Below are positions 37,501 to 64,000 of a stretch of 64,000 nt of DNA, one piece after another. The notes beneath the pieces were generated by a model. It searched no databases, was not told the origin of the DNA, and saw only the letters and a list, made by a program, of their open reading frames with translations. Numbering within the stretch: position 1 is the first letter of the stretch; each line of letters opens with the position of its first letter. The position numbers and the translations under genes were made by a program. The stretch spans positions 24,375,714-24,439,713 of the forward strand of contig CM049320.1 in assembly GCA_026874595.1 (NCBI GenBank), in the 5' to 3' direction. This stretch comes from Sipunculus nudus (taxonomy: Eukaryota > Annelida > Sipuncula > Golfingiida > Sipunculidae).

Positions 37501-40500
37501 TGCCGAATTTTGGATTCCTAGGTCTTACGGTTTCAAAACGTGCCACATCTACGGACGGACGGACGGACGGACGACGGACAATGGACCACGACTATAGCTC
37601 AGATGACTTATAGTCAGCTGAGCTAAAAATCATATAAATATATGTTTCATAATCCTGTCAAATCATGACATATGTTTTCTGTTGCATATTGTTCACCAGC
37701 AAATACCTCCCCCATTTATTACATCACTGATGATGTTACTGGGTGGTCCAAGCAGAAATCAACTATATCATACTAGTGCATTGTCAGATCCAAAAGGGGT
37801 TAAATCTTTAACTAATTCCAGTATCTGGTTTCTAATCTGATAATATATTGGTTCTTTTTAAAAAGTACCCAAAAATAATGTTTTGTGCATTTCAGTGAAC
37901 TGTTTGAAACCTTCTGCACCTTTAGATTAAAGGAGCTTCTTCTGTTTGTTCACCTTCAATCACGTTTTTTTCTGGGATCATATACTATGTTTACTGACAA
38001 GTTATAGATATACAAGTTTAAAAACCCATCACAGAGGCATTATAAGAATCTTTTTTGTAAGAATTGCCACCAGTTCATTATCAGGTGTGCAGAATTAGCT
38101 AGAAATCTCACACATTCTACAGGTGTAACAATGCACTGAGGAATTGATGCATTGAATTGCAGGCCCTTTGAATTGATTCATTTTGATTATCACTATTTTG
38201 CATGTACCATCCAAAAGTCCTATGTGCCACCTTAAATTTGACAGAGCGGTGTGCGAAGTCGAAGTTCTTTATCACGTATGTTCCTTAATTTACTGTAAAC
38301 ATTCACTGGTGGACCACTCCACTCGCATAAAAAAACAAATATGCAGTGACAAACAGAAGGAGAGCTCTATTTTTCTTTGATATTGTTCATTCTGCTTACA
38401 TCCATTTGGGTAAAAAGGCTTTAATTTTTCAAAAAGTCTTAAATTTACTGAAGGAATTGAATCGAAAATGGAATCAAAGGTAAAGAACAGATAACAGAAT
38501 CCATTCTAAGGGCCGTAACAATTCACAGGTTTAACACATTCTATAGTTATGACGTGAATAGTTTGCTTTTAGAGTGTAAATCACTGAGACCTGTGTCATC
38601 CCTGCTTTTTGCTGTACACAGTTGCATTTTATTTCTCACCTTGTACATGGGATGGTCCATGGCCTTCAGTGGCAGGAGTTTAGCATCTTTTTTACTGTAA
38701 ACATTCACTGGTGGACCACTCAACTCGCGTAAAAAAACAAATATGCAGTGACAAACAGAAGGAGAGCTCTATTTTTCTTTGATATTGTTCATTCTGCTTA
38801 CATCCATTTGGGTAAAAAGGCTTTTATTTTTCAAAAAGTCTTAAATTTACTGAAGAATTGAATCGAAAATGGAATCAAAGGTAAAGAACAGATAACAGAA
38901 TCAATTCTATGGGCCGTAACAATTCACAGGTTTAACACATTCTATAGCTATGACGCGAATAGTTTGCTTTTAGAGTGTAAATCACTGAGACCTGTGTCAT
39001 CCCTGCTTTTTGCTGTTCACAGTTGCATTTTATTTCTCACCTTGTACATGGGATGGTCCATGGCCTTCAGTGGCAGGAGTTTAGCATCTTTTAACTTCAC
39101 CTGGTCAGCATCAGCCTCCATCCAGGTAAAATCCTGTGAAAAAAAAGTACTAGTATATACATTATATAATCTTTCAAAATGAAATAAGAGGTAGACCTTA
39201 TCAGAAACCCTTAACTGAAGGAAGAAGGTGTACAATCCTACAACAAGTGACCCATGGGTCATGACGCTCAGCTGCCAAGCATGACCTGCGACATAATGGG
39301 CTGCAATTCACAACTTCTAGTAAAATTGTTGCAGAACCTATATGCCAATTTTGTTTAAACTTTTTACATTGCCATAAATTCTTATCATATATGTCTGGTT
39401 AAAACATAGTGAATGATGGTCTGAGGCAAAATGTATGGTTGTTGAGCTATCAGGAACTAATCCCACAGCTTGCTCGATACCTGTCAGTCTCAAAAGGAAT
39501 ACCACACAGGCCACATATAAGATCAAAATATAGCAAAAGATCAAAGAAATCCATGCAAGAATTATTGTGAAATGGGTGCTTCCATATTAATTTTTATTCA
39601 ATACAAGCCAACTGAACTGAGCTTTCATAAATGATGGTCATATTTATTAAGAAATCTTTGACCCAATGCAAGATTACATTAACATACATCCCACTGCATT
39701 CACTTTAATAGTTCTTGAGATAATATGTTCTAAAGAAATTTAAAGATGGCGTCCTGGTGGCCATATTGGATTTCTGACAGGTCGGACATTGAACAACAAA
39801 CATCCTCTAAAAGGGACCAAACATCATAAAAAAATCACATAAACTGTCCTGGCAAAAGGATTTCTAAAATGGCTACCTGGCAGACATAATGGTTTTCTGA
39901 CAAGTCACACATCCTCCAATAAGACACTAAACTTGTAGCAATTGCTTCAAAGAATGTAACAGTTATGAATGTCCAAAATAGACCCTTTCCTATGCACTAG
40001 TGACTATTGACACTAACAATTTGAGACTATTCCATCAACAATTAATCTCAAATGATGAAAGTATAAAAAAAAAATACAGTCTTATCAATAGAGAAATTTG
40101 TGTTCTGCCTGTGCCTGTGGGATGTATCTGCTTTCACCTAACAAAATTTGCTTTGCTGGCTCAAAGGACCCAATCCCCGCAGATAACCATCACGTGCCAT
40201 TATGAGCTGTATACATACTCATGGAAAAGGTCTGTTGACTGATCATGTGACCAGGTGATCAATCAGGTTGGACATGATGCATGCATACACCATTTGATGA
40301 AATTCTGCCCTCGAATGTATTTTTAATTTTATCAAATGACTGTAATGACTGTTAATAAATGAATTTAGCATGAATTAATTGTAATTCGCTTACCTGTATA
40401 CAAATTTGGCTCTGCATGTTCAGAAGAGCGGAATCTCTTGTATGAACTTGTACAGTCCAAGAGCACCCTAAAATACAAGGCAAAACATGATAATATACAC

Positions 40501-43500
40501 AATCAAAATATGATATTACTGGGATCTTAAAGGTCCTTAGTATAGTCCATGTGATGCCCAGTCACTCAACATGGCAGACAATTGGGGACATTGGATTCCT
40601 GATGGGTCTGAAATTCAGTAGTGCACGTCTCATGGGTGTCAGTGATCAGAATAAATTTTTACAGCAATGGCTTGAACATTTCTTAAGATACTGCACATGA
40701 AATGAATTTCAAGATCACTAACTGGTGGAAAAAATTTAATATTAATGAGTCTGAAAGTCACTCTCACTTGTGTTTAGTAAAATTTTCATGACCATTGCTT
40801 GGATGATTATTGAAATCCCAGAGCACCCTAAAAAACAAGGCAGCACATGAGTGAGATTCCATGGTAACTGCCTGGCTGCATTATTGTATTTCGAACATGG
40901 GTGTCTACCTCAGGTTAAATTTTTACAGTAACTGCTTTAAAGGTTCTTGAGATAATGTGTAGATAAAGGGGTGGTGGACAGATATCTGACAGACAGAAGG
41001 TTGGAAAATATTATCATGAGGCTGGGCCCCAATTATTGAAATCATTAACAGCACATTAAACTTCCTGACTAGGTTCAGGGGAAGTGTTTTGATACTTTAT
41101 GAAAATACACATCTTTACCTTTTACTGCAAACACATACAGTTAAGATAAAAAGTTAAGATATCACACATTTAAAATATCACAGTTGTGTCAATATCCAAC
41201 TGACCCACATGCAATCTTTGACCCTAGCAAAATGGATCTGAATATATGATTATGTTGTGAAGAAACAATATTTCCATTTTAAATCAAATGGTTATTCTAC
41301 TAGACACAATAAAGATTTTTTAAATATATTGTATGTTGTAAATATTTATGGAAACAAAAGATAATCCATCTGAATATCAATTAAATGGGATAATTCAAAA
41401 TTAATTGAATTATAAAATTCTAAATAATGTTATCTGTTGCACTTTTTCAACAGTAGCAAACTTCAATCTCTGAGATATGAGTAACTATCACATACTAAAT
41501 GTTTTGCATGATATTCATTTGCTTCATGTCACAAGTGCTGCCCCCTACCTTCAGGCACATCCTTCAGCATGGCATCACACACATTCAACTTCAGAAGAAA
41601 CCCCCGCAAAGCCTGCTCCAACCGTAATAAATACTCATCTTCCCTGAAATTGAAGGCACAGAATTCATACACTGTAATATTCCCTGCATAATACACTGTT
41701 TGGACAAAGAATATTCTGCTTTTATCTATGTAAACATATGCTACCCACAGAGTTTTTTTTATTCATACCAAACAGGGCTTAATATCAATGTCAGCATTAA
41801 TGTTTCCATCATTTCCCGACCTTAAATAAAACAATGCTGATGTCTCAAACTTGTATAACAATTGAAGAATAAATAAATCAGTAAAACTTGGTTTGCCTCT
41901 ACAGGTTGATAATAAAAATTAATCAGTTGTTTAGGAAATGTAAAATTTCCAACCTTATATGGTGATGGACATTGTTTCAAATGATATACAGGTCCAAAAG
42001 CTGGGAAATGTAAGTAATAATACCATGGAGTACATGTACACATGGTAAACTTAGCTATTAAAATATTAGTAAATATAGACTTTTCTAAATTTAGCTTGCA
42101 TTTATTACATGATTGAGAGCACACAATTCCCAATAATAAAGCCTTAGTTATGTGCAAAACTGTGTAATAGGTTATTTCACTGCAAAGATTGGTTATCAAA
42201 TTGTTTGCACCAAACAAATTATCATAGATCAATTGCTGTGACTACATGACTCAGTAAGCTGGTAGGCCTCTACTGGACTCATGAGATAAGTCATACACAG
42301 GAATTCACTGCAATGGCTATCCATCCTATTGCTTCAATACCGTGGTATACAGCTGATCCTAAAATTTTGCTACTATTGAAAAATTAACACAAAAGAATAC
42401 ATTTAAGCTCATTAACCAAAGGGTAAATCAATCTCTATGGCAACACATCAACTGCTGGGTCACCTACAGGTTGGCTCTCATCCAGTGACTGGTGCAAGAC
42501 ATACTTATGTTCATGTGGCCAGAAACTCAACAAGCATACAGCCCTGGGATTTACCAATATGCTTAGTTAAAACAGAATTTTCCTCACAGCACTTGCTCTC
42601 AACATGAGTGATGTCAGCTGGGTTCAAAAAAAGTTTATTCTATAAATTTTCCATTAAATTTTAATGACAATAACATCTGCACCTGCATGATAAACTTAGA
42701 AAAAAATATTACCCTGAGCTGGATGATGCTGGTTTGGTCATTTCAAACACAAAGCGTTCAACAGGTTTTTGCTCTCCATTTACAATTGCAACAACGACAG
42801 ACTCCACTTCTCCACTCTCCAGCAGAACCTGCAAGCTTCGTAACATTTCACTAATGTACTGGTTAACTCCTGGATGTCGGGACATCTGTAAAAAGATCAG
42901 GATTAATATGAGGATGCAGTCTTGATTACAGGAATATAAACTAACATCTGCAACAATATGTGAATTATCTGACACTATTAGTTTAGTTTGGTTTAATACA
43001 AGTTTCCCAGCAAAACCAACCCAGTACCCAGATTTATAATCTGCAATTCACCTGTTTAATATTGCCACCAGGTAGCGTAAGCTCCATGCTTATGTTTTGC
43101 TCATGCCATGAGCAAGTTTATTTCCACTTGTACAGGAATGAGCACTCTGATGAAGTCTAACCTTATGAAATATCAATACTTAGTTAACTGCATTGTATCG
43201 GTTAATCAATTTGAAACTTCAGCAAAAAAGGATTTTACTATATTAATAATACTAATGAACATTTTTCAGATTTTCTTTGTTTTCACATCCAGCTACAATG
43301 GGGACATTTCTGTGAATAAATCCATAAATAAATATAGCAAAAAGGCCCAAGGCCCTTCCTTAACTAGTGGAACTTCCCTTGTAATGTTCTTCAATACACT
43401 TGATCTGGTGTTCCAAGACTAAGAGAAAATGACAACCAATAACCAATTATAAATTGATTTATTTTATGTCTACATTCCGTGAAAAATAGAAATATATGTC

Positions 43501-48975: not shown

Positions 48976-51900
48976 TGAGCGAATTACTATTTTTTAACCT
49001 TTTTGTTTTAAAAATCATAAGTCTGCGCGTGAACTAAATGAAAAGTTATGAAATCCCTTATTATCGCTCAAAATGATGCTCAGATGTCTCCACAAGGCCA
49101 TTCCCCCTAATCTGCTAATTGATGGGTCCAGTTGGTTCAGTTCTCTCAGCCATTAAAGGCCCATGACTTTGCGAGAAAAAGTAATTTCAAATCAGTTTAA
49201 AAAACTGTTATCCTGATCCTGAAATTGTAATGATCAAAAACAAAGTTGCCAGTAATATTAATTATTAGGCTGTTGCTATTGGTCCGGGCCCAGACCCATT
49301 AATTATGCAGCCGGCTATTCGTCCGGCACTTCCTGTGCACATGCGCAGTGAGCAGTTGCACCATAATGCGGAAGTGCCGGGCACAGACTATGCACAGCTA
49401 ATGGTCTGGCACTCTTTGAATCTGGCTCGATCAGTACTGGACCTTCAGATGATATACGCACGGCGTGGCAGTGAGTCCGGCAGTTTTATTTTATGTCACT
49501 TATATAGTAAAAATAGTCAGTGCCGGACCCGCAACAATTGAGCTATTGGTCCGGCAGTTTTATTTTATGTCACTTAAATAGTAAAAGAGACGGTGCCGGA
49601 CCCGCAAGAACTGAGCTATTGGTCCGGCAGTTTTATTTTATGTCACTTATATAGTAAAAATAGTCAGTGCTGGACCCGCAACAATTGAGCTATTGGTCTG
49701 GCAGTTTTATTTTATGTCACTTATATAGCAAAAAAAGTCAGTGCCAGACCCGCAACAATTGAGCTATTGGTCCGGCAGTTTTATTTTATGTCACTTACAT
49801 AGCAAAAAGGACACTGCCGGATCCGCAACAATTTAGTTATTCGTCCGGCAGTTTTATTTTATGTCACTTAAATAGTAAAAGAGACGGTGCCGGACCCGCA
49901 ACAACTGAGCTATTGGTCTGGCAGTTATATTTTATGTCACTTACATAGCAAAAAAGACATTGCCGGACCCGCAACAATTGAGCTATTCGTCTGGCAGTTT
50001 TATTTTATGTCACTTATATAGTAAAAATAGTCAGTGCCGGACCCGTAACAATTGAGCCATTGGTCCGGCAGTTTTATTTTAGGTCACTTATATAGTAAAA
50101 TTAGTCAGTGCCGCTAAGAGCTTATTCTTTCCTCCAGTTGCGCAAGGCTGGCGAACAGGTCGCAGTCCACAAGGGCAGCCATAGCATTTGAAACGTTTTG
50201 TCCTTCTCGATGCTGGATGCTGTTCTTGCATACCGTACGCAGAAATGGAGGCTGCCATTTGAAGCCTAACAGCTTATTCACAGCCATTTTAGCGGGAAAG
50301 AATGCCGGCACTGGCACAGCACAGCTCAGTTTGGCTGTACCAGTCAAAATATGATGCCCGTTTCCAGTTATCTGCGCAGTACGCCACTGCGCATGTAAAC
50401 CGGAACTAGTACGGAAAAATAGCTGCACGGCAGTATTCATGGGTCCGGAGCTCTAGACACTTCATAATTATTATTCATCTGAAAATTCATATTTTTTTTA
50501 GGGAGTATAGATTTATCCAGCCTACTTTGACAAGGTTATGGGTGTATACAGACCGACATAATGATGTTTTGGATTCATGTAATGATACGCTCCTGAGGCA
50601 GCAGAAATCTTGCGCTTCTAAATAAGCAACTGATTTTTTCGCTGCCTGCTTTGACCATTTATGATACATTCAGACACCAGATGGCGGTTTGGTGTCCACT
50701 GAAAAAACGTGCGTATGGTTATGACAAACAGCCAACCAGATGCCAATTAACAAACACTCGACAGACATCCTGGCTCTTCCCATAGCTGCGCTTCAAGTGC
50801 CGCTTGATGACAGTTTATGGTCATATTTTAATTGCACCCTCTGCATTCTTGCATCATTGACCTATTCGATTATGACATGACAATGTTAGCTTAGCCATGT
50901 ATCTGTTTTCTGCAAACTGAACCCAGGAGCCAGTGAGGTGTGCACGCAGCCTTTGTTGTTACATTTCGTTTGAATTTACCGGCCGGGCATCCTATGTTCC
51001 CAAGGCCGTAAGCAAACCGCATGTGGGGCCATTCTCTCTGAGCCTATGGCCTGTTCAGACGGTTGCCAGGGCAATGAGATGTCACTCAAAACAAAATGAA
51101 CAACATTGGCTCCGTGTATTCCTCCCTTGGCCGGTAAACCATTTTTTCTTCCAGCACAAGGTCTCATCTGATTTGAGAAAATACAGTGCTCCCCTCTGGT
51201 GTAGCAATTCAGGATATGAGGTCAAAACAAACAGTGCTTACGATATAGGTAGTAGGCCTATAGGTAATGCGCTGTGTAAAGAGTGTAATGTAATGGGAGA
51301 GGCATTTCAATGTCATATCATATCAGGCATGTCATGGCTTATGTTGATTACTACTAATATGAGACGGTCCAGTCAGTTTAGACCCATCATGGAAATGTAG
51401 GCCAGATTCTATACTTGGGCCTTTTTTTTTAATTGACTGAAACATTGCAGTACTGTACTACTTATTTAACTGCAAAAAATATTGCATAGGCATCTAGTTC
51501 CACGGATACCTACCACATAAAAAAACTTCAAGAAATCGTGAGAACCTAAATCCTGTACGGGACAAAAATCGTAGTATTAAATCAAATAGGCTGTTGCTAT
51601 AGGTCCTGACCTGGATACTGATTATACAGGCTAAAGTTCCAGCAGCTCCTATGAGCATGTGTGCTGACCCTACCAGACACATCTATGGGAGCAAAAATAT
51701 TATATTTTCTGATTTTCTCTGGCACAGACTGATAGATCTACCCGAACATTTGCTATTATTCTGGTGTAAATATAAATTTTATTTTATTTGTAGTACCCTA
51801 TTTAGGACTTTCTACGATTTCAAGAATACACATAAATCCAGAAATCTGTGTTAAAACCAAGAAATTTTTCATTAAAAGTGAAGAAGAGGTATGCTTGATT

Positions 51901-53345: not shown

Positions 53346-56300
53346 TTAGTGGTGGGCCGATCGAGTTTTTTCGAAAGTCAGTTGGTTTGCTGCCACATTC
53401 AAGCGCTCGATTACGAAAGGCAACTATTGATTACATATACTCATGACTGTTTTTACCAGAATGTCCTTAAGTTATAGGCAAAAATTACTCTTCTGTTTTT
53501 TAAAAACATTCCGCGCTTCATATAATGAGTCTGTGTTCCCAGATAACCTCCGTATATAACTGAGTATGACATGGTAGATGAGAGAATGGAGGACATATTA
53601 AACCTCTGTGAACTGGCAGGGAGCTGCAGAATTAGCGGAGAGTTTTCTAACGAGATGTTCATTGCAAAATATGGGCGGTATGGCGTTAAAATGCTCCATA
53701 ATGCTCCAGGTCTATGCAAATTTTGCAAGATTCTCCTAGAAATAATCTACTCAACTGATGTCAGGTGCCCATGCCGCATGAGTTATTATATTTTTAGCTT
53801 TAAATTACTTATTTTTTAATTTTTGCCAAAAGTTATATGTAATTTTTCTGGCAGGCCTGTGAAACCAGTATGCATGTTGGCAGTCATCATAATTGTTATA
53901 AAATGAAAGTCCTGGTGGTGAAGTTAAAATGATACACGATATTCATGAGGGCCAGCAAGTAGATTTCCTGGACTGTAGTTTGATTCTTGATTACTATAAT
54001 TAATTAAAATGAAACTGAATAGCATATCTTAGTGATATAAGGGAAATATAAAAAAGGCAAAAACTTCTTTTCGTCAGGTAGAATTACTAAGACATACCAG
54101 CTGGGTTAAGAGAGTACAACAGATAATTGCACATTTCTTTATATTTGTCTGAACCGATTAACAATCGATCATCGATAGGTTTGCCCAAACCGATGATTGA
54201 TTATGAAAAAGGAACCGACTCCCACCACTAATATTAGTTGTAGGAATTATTTTTCAAATCATAATAGATGATTTGTAGAGAAAAAACGACTGATGATAGA
54301 TTTATTAATTGATTATTTTATGTACCGTATAATATATTTCCTTGAAATCTGCAGTTAAGAATTATAACTAAAATATGCACAAATAAAATTTGGTTTTATT
54401 TTTACATCACACTGGCAGGTCAAGGAGCAGGCCAGATTGTAATGTTAACTGATGGTGATACTTTGTGTCTTGTCTTTCTTATATCTCTGACAGGATTAAA
54501 ATATTTTTTTATAATATTACTTCTTTGCATTTGCATACATAATTGTGTTGATTGAATTTGCAAAAAATCCAAGTAGTTTAATCATTTTGAAAAAAAATGA
54601 CCAACCATCAATATAACTAATTAATTGGCATACCACTAGTATACATATGTATGTAAGTATGCATGTATATATACAGAGAAACCTCATTGTGTCGAACTCA
54701 CTTAAGTCGAACACCCGGCTAATGTTGAAGTTATAGACTGGATATTCTGGACAACTCTAGTTAAATAATTACCAAATAAAACAAGCTTGTGTTGAACCTT
54801 GGATGTGTCAGATTTTTCTGTGGGTCCCTTCAACTTCAACACAACAAGGTTTCACTGTATTAACAATTAGGTATCAATAATTCGACTTCTGTTTCACATG
54901 GTTTCTTTTCTTATATAGCAGCTGTTGCAGTGCTGGCATTTTGGATGGTGACTGTGTTCTACCTCGCCTACTCAGGTTTTTATAATAATGATGAACCCCA
55001 CTTCAACAAGAGAGGTAAGTCTTTAGCTCTTTCCCCAGAACCATATTCAGCATACATGTAGTATTTAATACACTTCCTGTTTACACTGTGGCAAGAAAAG
55101 AGTATTCAGTGCCATGTTTGATAAGGTAATATGATCTTTTGGGTTTGGATATCAAAATCACCTCCTGAATGGTTTCACTTACACAGCAAGTGCAAAAACT
55201 CCCAAAATGCAAATGAACACTGGTAAAGTGTGAACAGAAATTTTATTTTAGATAAAATTAAATATTGTATTTGACACCACATTCTGTCAAAAAAGTCTTT
55301 TGTGGAAATGGCATTATGTGAAACAAATTTGAACTATACAGGAAACACATAAAAATTGATTATGTGTAAAATACCATCATGGTCAACAGATTTCTGCCTT
55401 ATTATTTGTATGCATTATTAACAAAACAGCATTTTAAGGCTCAAGTTAATAAAGCTAGGTAATAACCAGTACTTGTATCCACAAAAAGCAGGAAAACAAA
55501 AAATACCTACCAGATATGGACATTTTTTTATAAAAGCCTAATATATACTAACAAAATATAATACAATGATTCATATATTATACAACTTAATCACCATACG
55601 TTACTCAAATCTCAACCATCAAACAAAAATTTCATCTTGGTCTCTCTGTGAGGCTTTACCTTTTAGTCCTGCCCTTTTGGCTTCCATTAGCCTCTTTCTG
55701 GCTTCGGCACGAGCTCTTGCAGCCTCCTTAGCCTTCTGTGATCTTTCCTTTGAAACGGCAGGTTTTGTCACTTTTCCTCGTGAAGATCGACTTCTTGCTG
55801 AGGTGACAGATTGTGAATTTGATTTTGTCATCTGTGGGCTCTGCCAGCCGTTCTTTCTGTAGGTGTCAATCTCATCAAACATGGTGGTCACATCCTTTAC
55901 CTGAATGCAGACCATATCCCAGAATCCCTCAAGGTCCTGGGCGGTCGTTTTGAATGGGTGGTCATTTGATTGTGAGAGATTTTTATCACAGAGGCCTCGA
56001 AACTGCTTAAATTTCTTACCGACCAGCAGGTGCGCTTTTCCTATCGCAGCTCGTAACTTCCCGTTAACATCCTCTGGCAATTCCTGTTTTAGTTCGTTTT
56101 CGGCCAGAGAACACAAAGCTTCTATTTTTTCTTGTTCCTGGTCAGCTTGCAACAAAAAGTACTTGCCATCTTTACTTTGATTAGCTACATCATATGTTGA
56201 AGTACTGGTAGACGCATTATTACACAGATTGGTATTTGGTGTTTCAGTATGTGACACAATACCTTCACTTAATCTCCTGATTGAACTGCTATCAGTTTGG

Positions 56301-59300
56301 TCTTTGAAAGAACAAGCACCGTCGGTTATTTCTAACTCTGAATTTTCATGGTAGGTTGATGTTGTGTTATTTGTGTGAATATTATCATCTCCAGCTCTGC
56401 CTGGCTTTTTATCTGTCACCAACAACACAGGTGTCTTCTGTTCTGTAATGGTGTTTTCAATTAAAAATGCCTTTTGTGACATTTTTACAGTCCATGAGTT
56501 GCGACGATTAGGTATGAAAGTGCTGTATGTGTTATGTTCATCTTGCATATCAGGCATTTTCTGTTCTGATGTGCCGTTTTCAAATAAAAATGCCTGTGGT
56601 GACATTTTAACAGTCTGTGAGTCACGACGACCAGGTATGAAAGTGCTGTATGTGTTATGTTCATCTTGCATATCAGGCATTTTCTGTTCTGATGTGCTGT
56701 TTTCAGATAGAAATGCCTGTGGTGACATTTTAACAGTCTGTGAGTCACGACGACCAGGTATGAAAGTGCTGTATATATCATGTTCATCTTGCATATCAGG
56801 CATTTTCTGTTCTGATGTGCCGTTTTCAAATAAAAATGCCTGTGGTGACATTTTAACAGTCTGTGAGTCACGACGACCAGGTATGAAAGTGCTGTATATG
56901 TCATGTTCATCTTGCATATCAGGCATTTTCTGTTCTGATGTGCCGTTTTCAGATAGAAATGCCTGTGGTGACATTTTAACAGTCTGTGAGTCACAACGAC
57001 CAGGTATGAAAGTGCTGTATGGGTCATGTTCATCTTGCATATCAGGCATTTTCTCTTCAGAGGTGCCGTTTTCAAATAAAAATGCCTGTGGTGACATTTT
57101 AACAGTCTGTGAGTCACGACGACCAGGTATGAAAGTGCTGTATGTGTTATATCCACACCCTGTAGAACCCCTGTATGTGTCGTATTCACTGACTGTATCA
57201 CTCAGCTCCAAGGAAGGAGGCAGTTTGGTCTGGACATGAAGAGTTGTCAAAGTGGATTCTGTAATATCTCCATGCTTTATAGATTCTGAGTCTCTGAAAT
57301 GTCCTGATCCTGCCTGCTCTGAATCTCCAGCAGTATTATCTTGACTTGTTACTGTACATGCAGATACAGTCATTGTTGATGGCCTATCTTTGTTATTATT
57401 CAGTGACCTAAAGCTCCCAGTATTACTGTTTGTGTACAGGTCTTCTCCTTTAAGCACAGTGGTCCCCAACCTGCATCCCATGTTGTACTATAGAAGCTTG
57501 CCTCAAGGTGTACATTATCAGCAGCAAGGTGTATCATATATATTGGTCTAGATGGCAACACTCAGCTCCTTGGTGACACTGGTTTGTATACATTGTAACT
57601 AACCATTGGGCATGCCTGCCCTAGCCCCAAGGCTAAGCTTATGATGCAACTGATTACCAGAGTAATTAGTTAATTACCTGTACCTGTGTATGTTAATTAC
57701 CATCTCTCAGGACTCAGGTCAGGTATAACATAACACTAACTACCACATGCTGTAGGTCTACGCTGGCAGTGTTACCACTTGATTAAATTTAACAGTTTTA
57801 GGAAACACAAATTTTATACTTTTATCACATTTTTTTTCAGACATAGTAACTTTTTTATACCTTTTTCTCACATCATGATCTTTATTTTTTCGGTTTTTTT
57901 TAGCATTTCACACACATATTTACAGAACTTTTTTCCAGACAAAGAAATATGTTCTGTTTGTGTTTAAAAAATTGTGTTAATTTTAATGAGTTTACAAAGT
58001 TTTGGTTTGATCTCTTTGTTATACCTGTACTGGTAGTCTCAGATGGCTAAGTATCCAATACATACATGTACCAATGATTAGTGTTTGATCAATAGCTCCT
58101 GGCATCCCTGAACATTTGTCATCCATGAAACTTGTTTAAACACATCACATGAAACAGTCACATCCAGGAAAAGTAGCACAGTTTTACACCAATTTATTCA
58201 TACATTTTTTTTAGAAAATCTTATTTTGAAGCTTGCAAGATTTCTTACTTATTTTCCATAATTTCCAGAATGGTTGAGTTCACTAGATTACTGTAATTTT
58301 TTTCATTTTAGTGGCAGCAGGGATATATTACAACTTAGAAATATTGTTTTTTTTTTTAAGTTTCTGGTTTTGGTATAATATATGCCCTTTTGATGAAAAA
58401 GATATGTTAAAAGTAAGGTTTATATGTTCTCACTGATATGTTCCACCTACAAGGCCTTTCAGTTGTCATGTTTCCCCTCTAAAGGGGACTTTAGAATAAT
58501 AATTTTAAATCATTGTTCAACTGTTTTTGTTTTCATTTCTGAGGAATGTAGCTTCTTAGGGTATTGATAAATAGTGTAATACATAAAACAAATGATAATA
58601 AAATAGACCAAAGCTTAAAGCTTGCTTTTTTGTACCATTATATTTCTTGCCCTACAAGCCTTAAGATTAATATATGATGCCCAATAGTTATTTATTTGAT
58701 ATCTGTTATATTGAAAAAGGCATGTTGAAAATTACACTTGATGGTTTAATTCTCTTCCGGATTAATATTAAACATGTCAGCTACAGGCAGCAAATCCTAT
58801 GCTTGTTATTATATTATATAATATTATATTTATACATTGTGTTTAGATTTACAACTGAAAATCAGACAACCATTCATGTTTGGGATGAACAACACAAACG
58901 GAATGAAGCATGAACTGTACGGACTCCCTCCAGACATGATGATACACGTGTGTCTGACATCAGACGAGAACACAGTTGTGGGGATGATCGCTACCATTAA
59001 CAGTATCCACAAAAATACAAAACAGGCTGTCATGTTTCATTTAGTACTGCCAGATGATCTCATCAGTCATGTCAGGTAATGATTTGTTAGATGTGGCATT
59101 GTCTGGCTTACTTCAACTAAGTTTCACCTCACCTAACATCAACTTCACCTCAAGTGTCATCTCACCTCCACCTCAGTTTACATTACACTTCCTGCACCTC
59201 ACCTCTTTACACTTACACCTTGTCTAACTTCACCTCGACCTTACCTTACTCAACCTTTACCTCACTTAATCATCGGATTTAACTGATTTCACCTCATCTC

Positions 59301-62300
59301 TGCCTCTTTACATTTACACTTCATATTTACCTTATCTGGCTAGGACTTTAAACACAAATGAAACAAAAACAATTTTAAATACAGTGGAACCCCACCTTGC
59401 CGCCACCCCCGAATTGTGACCACCCCACAATTACAACAACTTTGCTTGGTCCTGAATTTTTATAGTTTATTTATGTTTATAAATGACTCTAAATTGTGAC
59501 CATCCTGAATTCAGAATTAAGACCAGATTTCCTGGCCCCAGCACTTATGCGTCCACTGGCAAGAAGTACGGAAATAACATTTGTCACAAGTCAATGGCTG
59601 AGCCTTTTCACAGACGCCTAAACAATAGATCAAAGAGGGTAACAAGGTTTACCAACCAGAGTGTTAATCTGGTCCCACATATCTTCCTGAATCAGTGTCT
59701 GCGCCTAGTCTCATTGTGTGAAGGTAACCATTGGCCTGATTACTTAATGAGGCCGGTCTGCCTGCCTAACTGCCCTAGGGTCTTGGGCTATTGATGCTAA
59801 TTGCCCCTTTGTGATCACCTGTATTACAGCTACCCTAAGTGCGGGATGAGAGCTAATTATTTCTACTCATCACATATTCTTCTGTCCTCATTGGTCTAAT
59901 TATGACCTAGTTAATCATTAATGTGCTCATACATTACACTGAGTATTGAGAAGTCAGTGAAATGTATAAATAAAGCTTGCATGGGGGCAAAAAATCTCAC
60001 CTTATCAGATAGGTCATTGTCAGTCTATTTCTATACTCATTCAGTCTGCCTATTATTGCTTGCTGTTGTGCCACCATGCCTAGAAAAGGGCTCTCCTTGA
60101 AGGAGTAAGTGGCGTTAATCAAGGTGGCAGCACCAAGATGCAGTCAGTGCCAGTTGGCTGTGCCTGCACCTCTACATGCGTAACCTCACGACAAACTACG
60201 TGCACTTTGGACTCATTCGTGTAGAATTAACATCCACTGATATTCTATACACAGAGCTTTAAAAATTTCAAGTTCCTCGTCTTTCGTGCACATATACTAC
60301 CACTTTTTTAGCTCAGCTGACTATAAGTCATCTGAGCTATAGTCGTGGTCCATTGTCCGTTGTCCGTCCGTCTGTCTGTTGGTCCATCCATAAGACTGGC
60401 ACGTTTCAACACCATTGGACCTACGAATCTGAAATTAGGCATACAGTTAGATGTCCCCAAAATCTCCTACCATGCCGAAAATTTGGTCAATTGGACTTCA
60501 ATCCTTTGAGATATTAAGGAAAAACCTCAATTTTTTTTTAGAAATCTATTTTCACACTTCAGGACTGCCTAATATCAAAACCACTCATCTGGTTTTCTTC
60601 ATATATACCAAAAATATTCCTCTATATAGTTCCTATGTACATGCCAGAAATTTAGTCAGTATTATTTAATTTGAAAAAGTTATAGGCCCAAACATAATGA
60701 ACTTTGTAAAAAAATCAGGAAAGATATTTGGTCACTTAAGACCAAAAGTGTAAAAGGTAGAGACTTTTTCTCAGTAATACAACTTTAATTAATCAAAATT
60801 TAATTGTATACCAAAAATTAGATCAAAATCTGTTAAACTTTTTTAAATATTGGCAGAAATATAAAATTGGTACCTTGAATTTTGCCCAAGTTTGACCATG
60901 GCATGTTTTTTTTTTCCTGTAACTGCTGTGGATCTAATATTCAAAGCATGTCTTTATTTGCATTTCAACTGTTAACACCAAAAATTTGAAACCAGTTGAT
61001 CAAAAACTGTAGATTTTTATCAAGTTTTCAAGCACCATGTCACATACTGTTTACATCAAACTAGTGTTATGCAGTTAGCTAGAGCTCAGCTCCCCAGCTT
61101 CAGCTCTAAGTTCCTTAAATTTGGCATACAGTTAGATGTCTCCAAAACCCCCTACCATGCCAAGAATTTGGTCACTAGGACTTAATTCCTTCGAGATATT
61201 AATGAAAAACTTCATTTTTGCATTAAAAACCCATTGTTACACTTTAAGACTGCCTAATATCAAAACCACTGATCTGACTTTGATCATATATAATATACAT
61301 ATTTTTCTAGATACATTCGCTATGCACATGCCAGAAATGATGTAAGTATTGCATAATTGATTTAAGTTATGGGCCCAAACATTATGCACTTTTTAAAAAA
61401 TCAAGAAATATATTTACTCCCTTAACAAGAGGATTGCTGAAGCTAGAGATTTTTTGTCAGGGATGTAACATTATTTAATCAAGATTAAATTGAATACCCA
61501 AAATTAGTTCTGAATTTTTCAAATTTTATAAGTTATTAGTATAAATATAAAATTAGTACCTTAAATTTTGCCCAACTTTGACCATGGCACGTTTGTTTCG
61601 TGAGAGCACTGTTGATATAATTTTCATATCATGCACACATAAGGATTTCATCTTTGTAGTTTAGAAAGCTGAAAGAAATTGGCAAAATATTGTAGCTTTT
61701 ATTAATGTTTTAATGAGACTATGTCAGACTCAGGCTAGCTAGCCCCTCTTCAGTCACCTGTATGTTGACCTTGTTGACCTTTCATCAAATTATGCACGCT
61801 TGAGGCGAGACATACACTGGGGCAGCCAGGCAGGTAATGCCCAGCCACAGTTGATCAAGGTGTCCAACCCAACTCATCTAATAGTTGTTTTGAAAAACAA
61901 CATAACAATTAACAATAAATTAATAAATTTATATTGGTTTTTAATAACAAATTAAAGAAAAATTAATAGAAAGGAATTTGTTAGTTGATGAGTAACAGAA
62001 AATTAACTTGCAGTTACTGATGATGTAAGAATCTTGAATGGATGGATAGAATGTTACTGTCAGTGTTATTCCAAATAACACCATGCAGTCACCTATGGTA
62101 TTTTTCAGTTAAATTTTAATGATAAAAAATAAATCATATTATTCATTACTAATCATTAGGGATCATATGAAGGAATTTAATGATAGACAAAGATGCAGTT
62201 GATAATATTAATCTAGATTCCTACTGTGTCTAGTGTGTAGATTGATGTGAAAGTAGTCCAAAGTGAATATATTACATTTATTTTTTAATATAAATAAAAG

Positions 62301-64000
62301 CCATAAAACCAGGTAATTATGATCATTATTTAAATTTGTGAATTTTGCATATTCTGGAATCTCAACATCACTGTTTGGCTAAATCTAAATAAATACTAGA
62401 CATGGTGCGAATGCTTTGCAAATGTATTTGAATATGAATATGAATATGTACTGCATTAAAAAATTTTATTGCATAAGAATGGGAATTCAGGTAAAAAATG
62501 AAAATATTTGAACACCAGTGCAGATACTTTTAAAATGTATTCATGAATGCATTCATGAATATATTCTATAATATTATTTTAATTATCATTTCCATTATAT
62601 TTTATTTTAAAAAATCATTTGATTTTCTTATTATTTTTAGCTCAGCTGACTATAAGTCATCTGAGCTATAGTTGTGGTCCATTGTCCGTCCGTCCGTCTG
62701 TAAGACTGGCACGTTAAACTTTTTTAAATATTGGCAAAAATATAAAATTGGTACCTTAAATTTTGCCCAAGTTTGACCATGGCACGTTTTTTTCCTGTAA
62801 CTGCTGTGGATTTAATTTTCAAAGGATGTTTTTTTTACCATTTCAACTGTTAAAACAAAAAATTTGAAACCAGTTGATCAAAACTGTAGATTTTATTCAA
62901 GTTTTAAAGCACCATGTCATATATTGTTTACACCAAGCTAGTGTTATGCAGTTTACTAGAGCTCAGCTCCCCAGCTTCAGTTCTAAGTTCCTTAAATTTT
63001 GCATACAGTTAGATGTCCCCCAAATCCTCTACCATACTAAAAGTTTGGTCACTAGGACTGCATTCCTTCGAGATATTAAGAAAAAACTTCATTTTTCCAT
63101 TAAAACCCCATTGTTACACTTTAAGATTGCCTAATATCAAAACCACTGATCTGACTTTGATAATATATAATACACATATTTTTCTATACATTCGCTATGC
63201 ATATGCCAGAAATGATGTCAGTATCATGTAATTGTTTTAAGTTCTAGGCCCAACCATAATGCACTTTGTAAAAAATCAAGAAATGTATTTATTCTCTTAA
63301 CATGAAAATTGCTGAAGGTAGACATTTTTTTTGCCAGGGATATAACATTATTTGATCAAGATTCAATTGTATTCCCAAAATTAGTTCTGAATTTTTCAAA
63401 TTTTATAAGTTATTAGCATAAATATAAAATCAGTACCTTAAATTTTGCCCAACTTTGGCCATGGCATGTTTTTTCCCTGTAAGCACTGTTGATTTAATTT
63501 TCATATCTTGCACACGTAAGGATTTTAGCTTCTAAATTCTGAAGTTATAAAAGGAATTGGTCAAAAACTAGCTTTTATGAAAGTTTTTATGAGACCATAT
63601 CACACCTTGGCTGTACTGAAGCCCCTCTTTTATGTCCCCACATTGACCTTTCAGGCCAATTATGCATGCTTGAAGGGAGGCACTCTGCAGCCAGCCAGCT
63701 CTTGGGTGGCTTCAAATTGGATCTAACTGTCCAACCCCCTCCACTAGTATTTGTTTAGGCCATAAACATAACAATAAACTTTTTTTTTAATTCTTGGTTT
63801 ATGATAAGAACTTAAAAAAATAAATGGAAAAGGAATTTATAGTTAATGAGTTGCAGGGGATTACCTTGCAATTACTGATCATTTATGGATCTTCCATGGA
63901 TGGCCAAAATTGTATTTCAAATGATACCATGCAGTCACCATTGGGTATTTTTCATTTCAACCATAAAAATGAAAAATAAATAATTAAAATAAATTGTTGT
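48954..64000 (+). CDS. GLT8D1: GLT8D1-like glycosyltransferase family 8, first three exons
   Basis: Exons 48954-48975, 54919-55014 and 58847-59075 join in phase (1, 1, then 2 bases over) to 115 codons. Residues 1-7 are a short basic cytosolic tail (MKVYLQR). Residues 8-25 are a single hydrophobic signal anchor (AAVAVLAFWMVTVFYLAY), followed by a short stem. From about residue 67 the GT-A fold begins: MIHVCLTSDENTVVGMIATI, then NSIHKNT, as in GLT8D1/GLT8D2 (human VVIAASEDRLGGAIAAINSI). This predicts a type II Golgi membrane protein of family GT8; the acceptor substrate of this family is not well established. The DXD catalytic motif and the rest must lie in later exons, which I could not find before 64000. 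Intron 2 encloses a gene on the other strand. GLT8D1 and GLT8D2 cannot be separated from this part alone. Confidence 0.75.
49268..50464. mobile_element. 1.2-kb transposon-like element carrying a 73-bp minisatellite
   Basis: The nonamer TAATTATTA flanks both sides (49259-49267 and 50465-50473). The ends carry imperfect inverted repeats: CTATTGGTCCGGGCCCAGAC at the left against the reverse complement of the right end, CTAGAGCTCCGGACCCATGA. Sub-terminal ACATGCGCAGTG is also inverted between the two ends. The middle is a 73-bp satellite. A 108-codon minus-strand open frame (50440-50114) has no recognisable family. A related end-fragment lies at 51589-51680. Superfamily unknown; the 8-9 bp duplication would suit a hAT-like mechanism. 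Confidence 0.65.
49475..50113. repeat. 73-bp minisatellite, about 8.7 units
   Basis: Units begin GTCCGGCAGTTTTATTTTAT, continue GTCACTTATATAGTAAAAA and TCAGTGCCGGACCCGCAACA, and end ATTGAGCTATTG. Starts are near 49475, 49548, 49621, 49695, 49769, 49842, 49915, 49988 and 50061. Neighbouring units differ by a few substitutions, including recurrent C/T changes in the CCGG core. Each unit carries GGTCCGGC and GCCGGACC, which can pair as a hairpin. Confidence 0.92.
50474..53311. other. GLT8D1 intron 1, no further gene recognised
   Basis: A 155-codon plus-strand open frame (50933-51400) has mixed protein-like composition but no motif, no matching frame elsewhere and no splice support; I leave it uncalled. 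Apart from the 51589-51680 repeat fragment, nothing stands out. Confidence 0.4.
51589..51680 (+). repeat. Fragment of the 49.3-kb element's left end
   Basis: AGGCTGTTGCTATAGGTCCT, then ACTGATTATACAGGC, CCAGCAGCTCCTATGAGCAT and GTGTGCTGACC align with 49267-49350 over most of their length. No minisatellite follows, so this is an old truncated copy or solo end. Confidence 0.55.
53312..53342. repeat. TA microsatellite
   Basis: About 15 TA units directly before the target duplication of hAT copy B. Confidence 0.95.
53347..54230. mobile_element. hAT-type element, copy B (884 bp, perfect 8-bp target duplication)
   Basis: It starts TAGTGGTGGGCCGATCGAG and ends GACTCCCACCACTA. The octamer ATATTAGT precedes it (53339-53346) and follows it (54231-54238), exactly as hAT transposition predicts. 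It is longer than copy A because of interior sequence that copy A lacks. An 82-codon open frame (53571-53819) starts MVDERMEDILNLCELAGSCR; the corresponding stretch is present but damaged in copy A. I do not recognise that peptide as a transposase domain. Confidence 0.85.
54674..54857. mobile_element. 184-bp pogo/Tigger-like MITE
   Basis: The left end CAGAGAAACCTCATTGTGTC and the right end GACACAACAAGGTTTCACTG-like sequence (read ACACAACAAGGTTTCACTG) are inverted copies. Both are flanked by TA (54672-54673 and 54858-54859). CAGTGAAACCTCGTT-type ends with a TA duplication are characteristic of pogo/Tigger elements. It lies 60 bases upstream of GLT8D1 exon 2, in intron 1. Confidence 0.7.
54919..55014 (+). 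CDS. GLT8D1: GLT8D1-like exon 2 (signal anchor)
   Basis: The acceptor is TTCTTTTCTTATATAG and the donor is AGAG|GTAAGT. It encodes AVAVLAFWMVTVFYLAYSGF and then YNNDEPHFNKR, a transmembrane segment plus the start of the lumenal stem. Confidence 0.8.
55242..55247 (-). promoter_or_regulatory. Candidate polyadenylation signal for the DLGAP5-like gene
   Basis: AATAAA on the minus strand about 370 bases after the stop codon of the nested gene. It is a common word in AT-rich sequence, so support is weak. Confidence 0.3.
55619..57481 (-). CDS. DLGAP5: DLGAP5/HURP-like GKAP-domain protein, single uninterrupted ORF
   Basis: 620 codons without an intron. Residues 1-112 are Ser/Thr-rich and disordered-looking. 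Residues 113-358 are six tandem 41-residue repeats. Residues 359-439 are another low-complexity linker. Residues about 440-550 form the GKAP/SAPAP domain, with KYFLLQADQEQEKIEALC, AAIGKAHLLVGKKFKQFRGL, TTAQDLEGFWDMVCIQVKDV and then GWQ. Residues about 560-612 are a basic Arg/Lys/Ala-rich probable helix. The FWDMV stretch looks closer to HURP (DLGAP5), a spindle microtubule-binding protein, than to the synaptic DLGAP1-4; this is from memory of the family. It ends DQDEIFV. It lies inside GLT8D1 intron 2 on the opposite strand. An in-frame TAG lies three codons before the ATG, overlapping a CTATAG that could be a splice acceptor, so 5' exons are possible. Confidence 0.8.
   Translation of the reverse strand: MGCRLGTTVLKGEDLYTNSNTGSFRSLNNNKDRPSTMTVSACTVTSQDNTAGDSEQAGSGHFRDSESIKHGDITESTLTTLHVQTKLPPSLELSDTVSEYDTYRGSTGCGYNTYSTFIPGRRDSQTVKMSPQAFLFENGTSEEKMPDMQDEHDPYSTFIPGRCDSQTVKMSPQAFLSENGTSEQKMPDMQDEHDIYSTFIPGRRDSQTVKMSPQAFLFENGTSEQKMPDMQDEHDIYSTFIPGRRDSQTVKMSPQAFLSENSTSEQKMPDMQDEHNTYSTFIPGRRDSQTVKMSPQAFLFENGTSEQKMPDMQDEHNTYSTFIPNRRNSWTVKMSQKAFLIENTITEQKTPVLLVTDKKPGRAGDDNIHTNNTTSTYHENSELEITDGACSFKDQTDSSSIRRLSEGIVSHTETPNTNLCNNASTSTSTYDVANQSKDGKYFLLQADQEQEKIEALCSLAENELKQELPEDVNGKLRAAIGKAHLLVGKKFKQFRGLCDKNLSQSNDHPFKTTAQDLEGFWDMVCIQVKDVTTMFDEIDTYRKNGWQSPQMTKSNSQSVTSARSRSSRGKVTKPAVSKERSQKAKEAARARAEARKRLMEAKRAGLKGKASQRDQDEIFV
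56408..57145 (-). repeat. Six 123-bp (41-residue) coding repeats
   Basis: The protein unit reads YSTFIPGRRDSQTVKMSPQA, then FLFENGTSEQKMPDMQDEHD. Units 1-5 are almost identical in DNA as well as protein; unit 6 (nearest the GKAP domain) is diverged (NRRNSWTVKMSQKAFLIEN). Substitutions seen among units include R/C in GRRD, F/S after AFL, and G/S in ENG. Because the unit is a multiple of three, it also opens long frames on both strands (plus 56448-57239 and another minus frame 57201-56485), which are shadows. Confidence 0.95.
57482..58846. other. Rest of GLT8D1 intron 2
   Basis: No further exon recognised. Just upstream of the nested gene, CAGTGGTCCCCAACCTGC (57457-57474) resembles a hAT terminus, but I found no partner end. 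The remainder is AT-rich with T-runs. Confidence 0.4.
58847..59075 (+). CDS. GLT8D1: GLT8D1-like exon 3 (start of GT8 domain)
   Basis: The acceptor is CATTGTGTTTAG and the donor is TCAG|GTAATG. It encodes DLQLKIRQPFMFGMNN through IHVCLTSDENTVVGMIATIN to HLVLPDDLISHV. It is open and in phase with exon 2, and composition and motif conservation support it strongly. Confidence 0.85.
59382..60183 (+). mobile_element. Decayed pogo/Tigger-like element with broken transposase start
   Basis: The left end is CAGTGGAACCCCACC after TA (59380-59381), a pogo/Tigger-type terminus. At 60076 a strong-context start (GTGCCACCATGCC) reads MPRKGLSLKE, then a TAA (60106-60108), then VALIKV in the same frame before the similarity fades. 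MPRK...SLKEKVxLI-like sequence is the expected N-terminus of the pogo-type DNA-binding domain, so one codon appears to have become a stop. No right end was found; another repeat begins at 60308. The assignment is tentative. Confidence 0.4.
60308..62637 (+). mobile_element. TAGCTCAG repeat family, plus-strand copy 1
   Basis: It starts TTTAGCTCAGCTGACTATAA with the TAGCTCAG/CTGAGCTA hairpin, then a GTCC-rich run (60355-60375). Two related modules follow (about 60430-61000 and 61100-61640) sharing GGCATACAGTTAGATGTC, CTGCCTAATATCAAAACCAC and GGGCCCAAACAT. Then comes the AT-rich part with CATGAATGCATTCATGAAT (about 62540). It is the inverted counterpart of 37628-35300. It ends where the next copy begins. 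It lies in the presumed GLT8D1 intron 3. Confidence 0.75.
62638..64000 (+). mobile_element. TAGCTCAG repeat family, plus-strand copy 2 (runs off window)
   Basis: It begins again with TAGCTCAGCTGACTATAAGT, directly after copy 1. It jumps from AAGACTGGCACGTT to AAACTTTTTTAAATATTGGC, so about 430 bp of module 1 present in copy 1 are deleted. Module 2 (about 62990-63260) and the following part are present and continue to the window edge. Confidence 0.75.

Follow-up and report, generated by a model that had tools for sequence, protein, structure and literature searches.

An intronless DLGAP-type reading frame nested in an intron of Sipunculus nudus is a processed copy of a multi-exon gene

We analysed a 64 000-nt window of the Sipunculus nudus genome (contig CM049320.1, hereafter C15, positions 24375714-24439713 of an assembly of 1.43 Gb), which contains a long uninterrupted reading frame with a GKAP domain. 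A stop-to-stop frame spans 55619-57487 on the minus strand, and an ATG at 57481 opens 620 codons followed by a stop. The Pfam GKAP profile matched residues 360-605 (8e-41, 141.1 bits, curated cut-off 27), confirming the 620-codon GKAP frame (57481-55619) that a first-pass annotation had read from the letters. The frame sits antisense to a plus-strand gene, within an intron of 3.8 kb (55015-58846), and corresponds piece by piece to the exons of a gene on another contig, C12, referred to as the parent. The features of the frame are as follows, with the basis of each in brackets.

57479..57490, minus strand: ATG whose context has A at -3 and G at +4, preceded closely by an in-frame TAG at 57488-57490 (read from the DNA)
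55619..57481, minus strand: coding sequence of the proposed retrogene, without introns, 620 codons and stop (open frame, Pfam GKAP)
57418..57481, minus strand: first 21-22 codons; similarity to the parent starts only at about the start of exon A (comparison with C12)
56171..57417, minus strand: counterpart of parent exon A, C12:43078748-43078123 (alignment)
56405..57142, minus strand: six 41-codon units head-to-tail, where the parent has one unit (Tandem Repeats Finder, alignment)
56068..56170, minus strand: counterpart of parent exon B, C12:43061746-43061644 (alignment, joined exon ends)
55976..56067, minus strand: counterpart of parent exon C, C12:43055967-43055876, opening at the site of a phase-1 intron that the C12 gene and a related gene on contig C4 have in common (alignment, joined exon ends)
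55823..55975, minus strand: counterpart of parent exon D, C12:43043196-43043044 (alignment, joined exon ends)
55619..55822, minus strand: counterpart of parent exon E, C12:43031058-43030846, with basic tail and stop (alignment)
55342..55556, minus strand: 3' untranslated homology to C12:43028799-43028593 (blastn, local alignment against shuffles)

The encoded protein is most likely a DLGAP-type scaffold, a role suggested by its architecture: a multivalent N-terminal arm that would be disordered, judging by its composition only, a predicted three-helix GH1 and a basic tail with a net charge of +12. GH1 was predicted from the single sequence as three helices with a mean pLDDT (predicted local distance difference test) of 77.7 and a pTM (predicted template modelling score) of 0.60; the other four models ranged from 49.3 to 74.4. 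The MGCRLGT start fits the loose PROSITE pattern for N-myristoylation, but the pattern is common and this candidate was set aside.

The GKAP profile gave four matches over the genome at three loci, one in the window frame, two on C12 and one on C4. With the whole protein as query, at least 34 places were found (place counts from protein searches are lower bounds): the window frame, six on C12, one on C4 and 26 on C6 and C17. The matches on C6 (11) and C17 (15) were weak, covered the repeat part only and often contained stops, and were taken as chance or compositional. On the minus strand of C12, five coding exons, A to E, were delimited by AG acceptors and, for A to D, by GT donors, with exon E ending in a stop; together they comprise 395 codons with no inner stop. 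The exon ends joined over the C12 introns aligned to the window frame at all four junctions, and the window copy runs without a break past each of the four introns that separate the known C12 coding exons. The intron after ...GAGGAAG and before the exon reading xGKLRAAIGKA lies at the same place and in phase 1 in the C12 and C4 genes, and the introns are therefore ancestral and were lost in the window copy. Since four parental introns are absent and intron presence is ancestral, the window frame is a processed retrocopy of the C12 gene. Homology after the stop codon resumes at C12:43028799, where the local alignment scored 94 and none of 200 shuffles exceeded 61. Among the origins considered in the first-pass annotation was a retrocopy with a persistently open frame, and the intron-bearing parent on C12 bears it out. 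That annotation had also pointed to a genome search for an intron-bearing paralog, which yields intron-bearing relatives on both C12 and C4; its reading of such a result, if joined by a lack of transcription at the window frame, as a dead copy is opposed by the constraint described below. A long tandem array, whose frame repeats NLCTVGHFDCTFL, was also observed on C12 between parent exons A and C (L004:1864-3111).

Outside the repeat array, 362 codons of the window copy align to the parent with 72.8% DNA identity and 63.0% protein identity. The overall synonymous divergence (dS) between them is 0.6-0.8, and the retrocopy is old. Free drift of the copy predicts a pairwise ratio of nonsynonymous to synonymous divergence (dN/dS) of about 0.5 or more. 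Over all 362 codons, dN/dS by the Nei-Gojobori method (NG86) was 0.311 (bootstrap 0.220-0.427), and three other estimators gave 0.325-0.388. In the 119 codons of GH1 it was 0.116 (bootstrap 0.057-0.228, with 496 of 500 replicates usable; 0.155-0.214 by three other estimators), in the 186 codons of GH1 and tail 0.181 (0.108-0.303), and in the N-terminal part 0.34-0.45. An old frame that is still open, with a GH1 dN/dS below 0.5, argues for a retrogene under selection, and these values indicate that GH1 of the window copy is under purifying selection. A function of the window copy, for which the first-pass annotation had argued from the intact frame, is supported by this constraint.

We consider it very probable that a spliced DLGAP-type mRNA from C12 was retroposed into the intron of the probable GT8 gene and is now a constrained retrogene. 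In this sequence of events, the spliced mRNA of a multi-exon DLGAP-type gene, now on C12, would have been reverse transcribed, and a probable GT8 glycosyltransferase gene on C15 would have received the copy, in antisense, in one of its introns. This copy would then have become a retrogene, presumably transcribed, whose frame stayed open and whose GH1 came under purifying selection. One 41-residue piece of the putatively disordered N-terminal part would have come to number six copies, whether by expansion following the insertion or with the parent having lost units.

Several observations weigh against this scenario. The window copy lacks ∼2 kb that follow the stop on C12; the missing piece could be either an untranslated-region intron or a deletion, the deletion being the unfavourable case. 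The blastn piece ends at C12:43028658, where the stretch has the last of its six AATAAA words (43028662), whereas a permissive local alignment reaches 43028593, ∼65 bases beyond that word and farther than a usual poly(A) site. Neither a poly(A) tract nor a clear target-site duplication was seen at the window copy; these are marks of a recent retrocopy that are lost with age, and are not defining for a copy this old. Neither blastn nor tblastn found a parental counterpart of the first 21-22 codons at 43.08-43.24 Mb on C12 (∼160 kb upstream of exon A), so that the 5' end of the copy is unexplained. As to constraint, 0.5 lies within the bootstrap range of the tail alone (dN/dS 0.345, 0.16-0.65) and is not excluded for the linker that joins the array to GH1 (0.61-0.93, three estimators). 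The 0.5 criterion itself assumes a roughly even split of the synonymous change between the two branches, and dS of GH1 by NG86 is 1.08, near saturation.

A donor scan for 5' exons of the parent gave a best score of 33 against 30 in a reversed control, with nothing that stood above the control. Because similarity stops at about an exon border, the first 21-22 codons are probably derived from a parental exon that was not found; alternatively, they may have been recruited locally. Functional retrogenes, nested ones included, are already a known kind. The literature search aimed at a DLGAP retrogene gave only an unrelated paper, and none of the bivalve or mollusc retrogene matches listed was on DLGAP by title. 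The amphioxus SYCP1 retrogene, according to a passage of its description (PMC5803294), resembles the window copy in having one coding exon from a multi-exon parent and in having been kept open, and it gained new 5' untranslated exons. The present case differs from what that passage gives, and from nested retrogenes, in that the parent survives, the copy is antisense in an intron and an internal repeat has been expanded. With this precedent, the retroposed coding part may later have acquired spliced 5' untranslated exons, which would modify the retrogene scenario and not replace it. An acceptor-like TTCTATAG stands directly before the ATG, and spliced upstream exons would suit first codons that the searched parent region does not explain. 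On the other hand, no upstream exon was identified, and the upstream in-frame TAG and the start context show only that coding can start here. We regard such a gain as a tentative addition, with the balance somewhat against it.

If the copy had instead been inserted, never expressed and left to decay, its frame would be open by chance. The nearly unconstrained linker would suit such a dead retrocopy, as would the fact that transcription of the window copy and the position of its promoter are presumed. However, the overall dS implies a branch of ∼0.3-0.4 for the window copy, and in neutral simulations of the 362 codons (1000 runs at each rate) the stop-free fraction fell from 39% at 0.02 substitutions per site to 9.4% at 0.05 and 1.3% at 0.1, and no run stayed open at 0.2 or 0.35. 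The upper bound of 0.23 for the GH1 dN/dS likewise speaks against decay, as does the GH1 branch length in a tree of five sequences, which is 0.10 for the window copy and 0.19 for the parent. Among 29 GH1 differences, the residue was shared with an outgroup by the window copy alone at 9, by the parent alone at 5, by both at 3 and by neither at 12; the difference between 9 and 5 is small, and points in the same direction. A dead retrocopy is thus very improbable.

The first-pass annotation had named the gene DLGAP5/HURP-like; on that reading, it would be a true DLGAP5/HURP orthologue with few introns. The GKAP domain does contain GFWDMV and GWQ as in human DLGAP5, and phmmer matched the protein to the solved DLGAP5 chain 8x9p (65.1 bits, 4.6e-17). 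Nevertheless, the best solved chain was GH1 of DLGAP1 (4r0y, 94.6 bits), in a comparison that leaves the tail outside, the 4r0y chain ending sooner than 8x9p. Over GH1, the window copy was 76.2% identical to C12, 38.7% to DLGAP1, 37.9% to C4 and 33.3% to human DLGAP5, whereas C4 was 44.7% identical to DLGAP5. In the five-sequence unrooted GH1 tree, C4 paired with DLGAP5 at 100% ultrafast bootstrap, and the window copy paired with C12, outside the HURP pair. HURP is marked by an FFxVxSP motif after GH1 and an N-terminal motif of KVGR type. The C4 gene carries PYFRELLVTETKRL and FDGGFFSVSSPKR; FFSVSSP is present on C4, and a search of 40 kb of C4 gave no motif of the KVGR type. In the window, only chance-like matches to these motifs were found, namely three KVG-type matches, all on the plus strand, and three FFPVSTV whose frames are broken by stops, none of them beside the frame. 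These comparisons indicate that the HURP orthologue of this genome is the intron-bearing C4 gene and that the window gene and its C12 parent form a DLGAP lineage separate from HURP. The C12 and C15 genes likely belong to the DLGAP1-4 lineage proper, although a tree of five sequences with no root does not prove it. With DLGAP1 scoring higher, the motifs chance-like and C4 paired with DLGAP5, we rejected HURP identity for the window gene as the least probable of the alternatives.

The array that separates copy from parent was reported by Tandem Repeats Finder at 56453-57147, with a period of 123 bp and 94% matches. It is in frame, its six copies accounting for 246 of 620 codons (∼40%), and residues 114-359 read as six 41-residue units head-to-tail, the sixth much diverged. 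The single unit of the parent reads DRDSRTVKVS, and most window units read RRDSQTVKMS. RRxS occurs six times in the copy (five inside the array) and RxSQT four times, both being absent from the parent exons read; RDSQT is found in four of the six units and SQT in five. When the collapsed protein was shuffled 5000 times, at least one [KR]x[ST]QT appeared in 347 cases. The changes between repeat units 1-5 are too few to decide selection. The N-terminal 360 residues had no phmmer match to solved chains up to E 10, and the middle part of HURP was on this ground rejected as a source of the repeat.

Two kinds of binding peptide resemble these units. The LC8 anchor is given as [K/R]xTQT in a passage of PMC12797016, and an SQT site is graded as a low-confidence LC8 anchor in an excerpt of PMC6607443. 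The PSD-95-binding repeat of SAPAP, as quoted in part of PMC9005747, is RRE(pS)YLKATQ; RRDSQTVK has the RRxS and lacks both the aromatic residue at +1 (Y in that peptide) and an A or M at +4 (A in that peptide). Because RRDSQTVK has, beyond its serine, neither the aromatic nor the small residue, and because SQT is a low-confidence anchor, a role as a multivalent arm is only an idea, and an LC8-binding array would be an improbable form of it. On the most far-reaching reading, the retrogene would be displacing its parent, with a slightly more ancestral GH1, a new multivalent arm whose six-fold unit clusters LC8 dynein light chain or a GK domain, and expression tied to the antisense host gene; we consider this improbable.

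In overall plan, the window protein is like DLGAP1-4 (GKAP/SAPAP) in GH1, in a basic tail and in a long N-terminal arm whose composition is disorder-like and whose repeats contain RRxS. A sequence search with the last 60 residues gave four matches at E 0.45-1.7 (sohair, ribosomal protein L23a and two designed helical repeat proteins) and no DLGAP. The likeness of the tail to that of DLGAP1 is therefore presumed, in part from the YIPE motif given below. The C-termini read ...DEIFV in the window copy and ...EEIEIYVP in the parent. In a passage of PMC12589307, YIPE stands just before the PDZ ligand in DLGAP, and the Shank ligand is x-T-x-(L/F); the parent end EIEIYVP resembles this YIPE, whereas the C-terminal Shank ligand of DLGAP1-4, as given there, is in neither the window copy nor the parent. 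The GKAP domain is also what the window protein has in common with DLGAP5/HURP, Mars and DLGR-1, and the HURP-type motifs of DLGAP5 were not found at the window frame. Part of PMC11364988 gives the GKAP domain as all that DLGR-1 of C. elegans and Mars of Drosophila share with HURP, and places DLGR-1 nearest to DLGAP1.

The host gene was traced through the two exons that flank the 3.8-kb intron.

54919..55014, plus strand: upstream host exon with a membrane-anchor-like stretch, ending GAG|GTAAG (DNA and frame read)
58847..59075, plus strand: downstream host exon, probable start of a GT8 domain (profile positions 1-36, below cut-off alone; profile search)

Splice signals and phase compatibility of these exons were read by eye, and the antisense nesting described in the first-pass annotation was upheld. 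The downstream exon matched Glyco_transf_8 at E 0.093 and was outranked by Tag1_M at E 0.022, both sub-threshold. Beyond the window, on the same strand and in profile order, GT8 matches were found at C15:24447905, 24451086 and 24454243; the second is over the cut-off, and the first and third fall short of it and contain stops. We infer that these three matches are part of the same host gene. Because they continue in profile order along the strand, they support GT8 identity, and the host is probably a GT8 glycosyltransferase gene. A 73-bp tandem array (49475-50113, 8.7 copies, 88% matches) lies upstream of the host exons. The MAD2L2 neighbour named earlier was recovered as one minus-strand exon at 42727-42891, matching MAD2B chains at 1.5e-12.

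Other repeats in the window included a 401-bp unit in two tandem copies with 97% matches (38289-39092) and a 146-bp tandem array of four copies with 86% matches (2282-2861), partly open on the minus strand (2320-2661). Related translated stretches at 60300-63600 recur near 33.9 and 37.0 kb and look like a single dispersed repeat family.

For the family, these results call for caution, since the HURP name is not justified for invertebrate GKAP-domain genes by the domain alone. For the organism, the locus would be a clear case of retroposition leading to a constrained new gene in a large animal genome, with the parent, an ancestral intron and the host intron all available. Because the copy has six repeat units and the parent one, a gain of valency after duplication of a scaffold is directly testable here.

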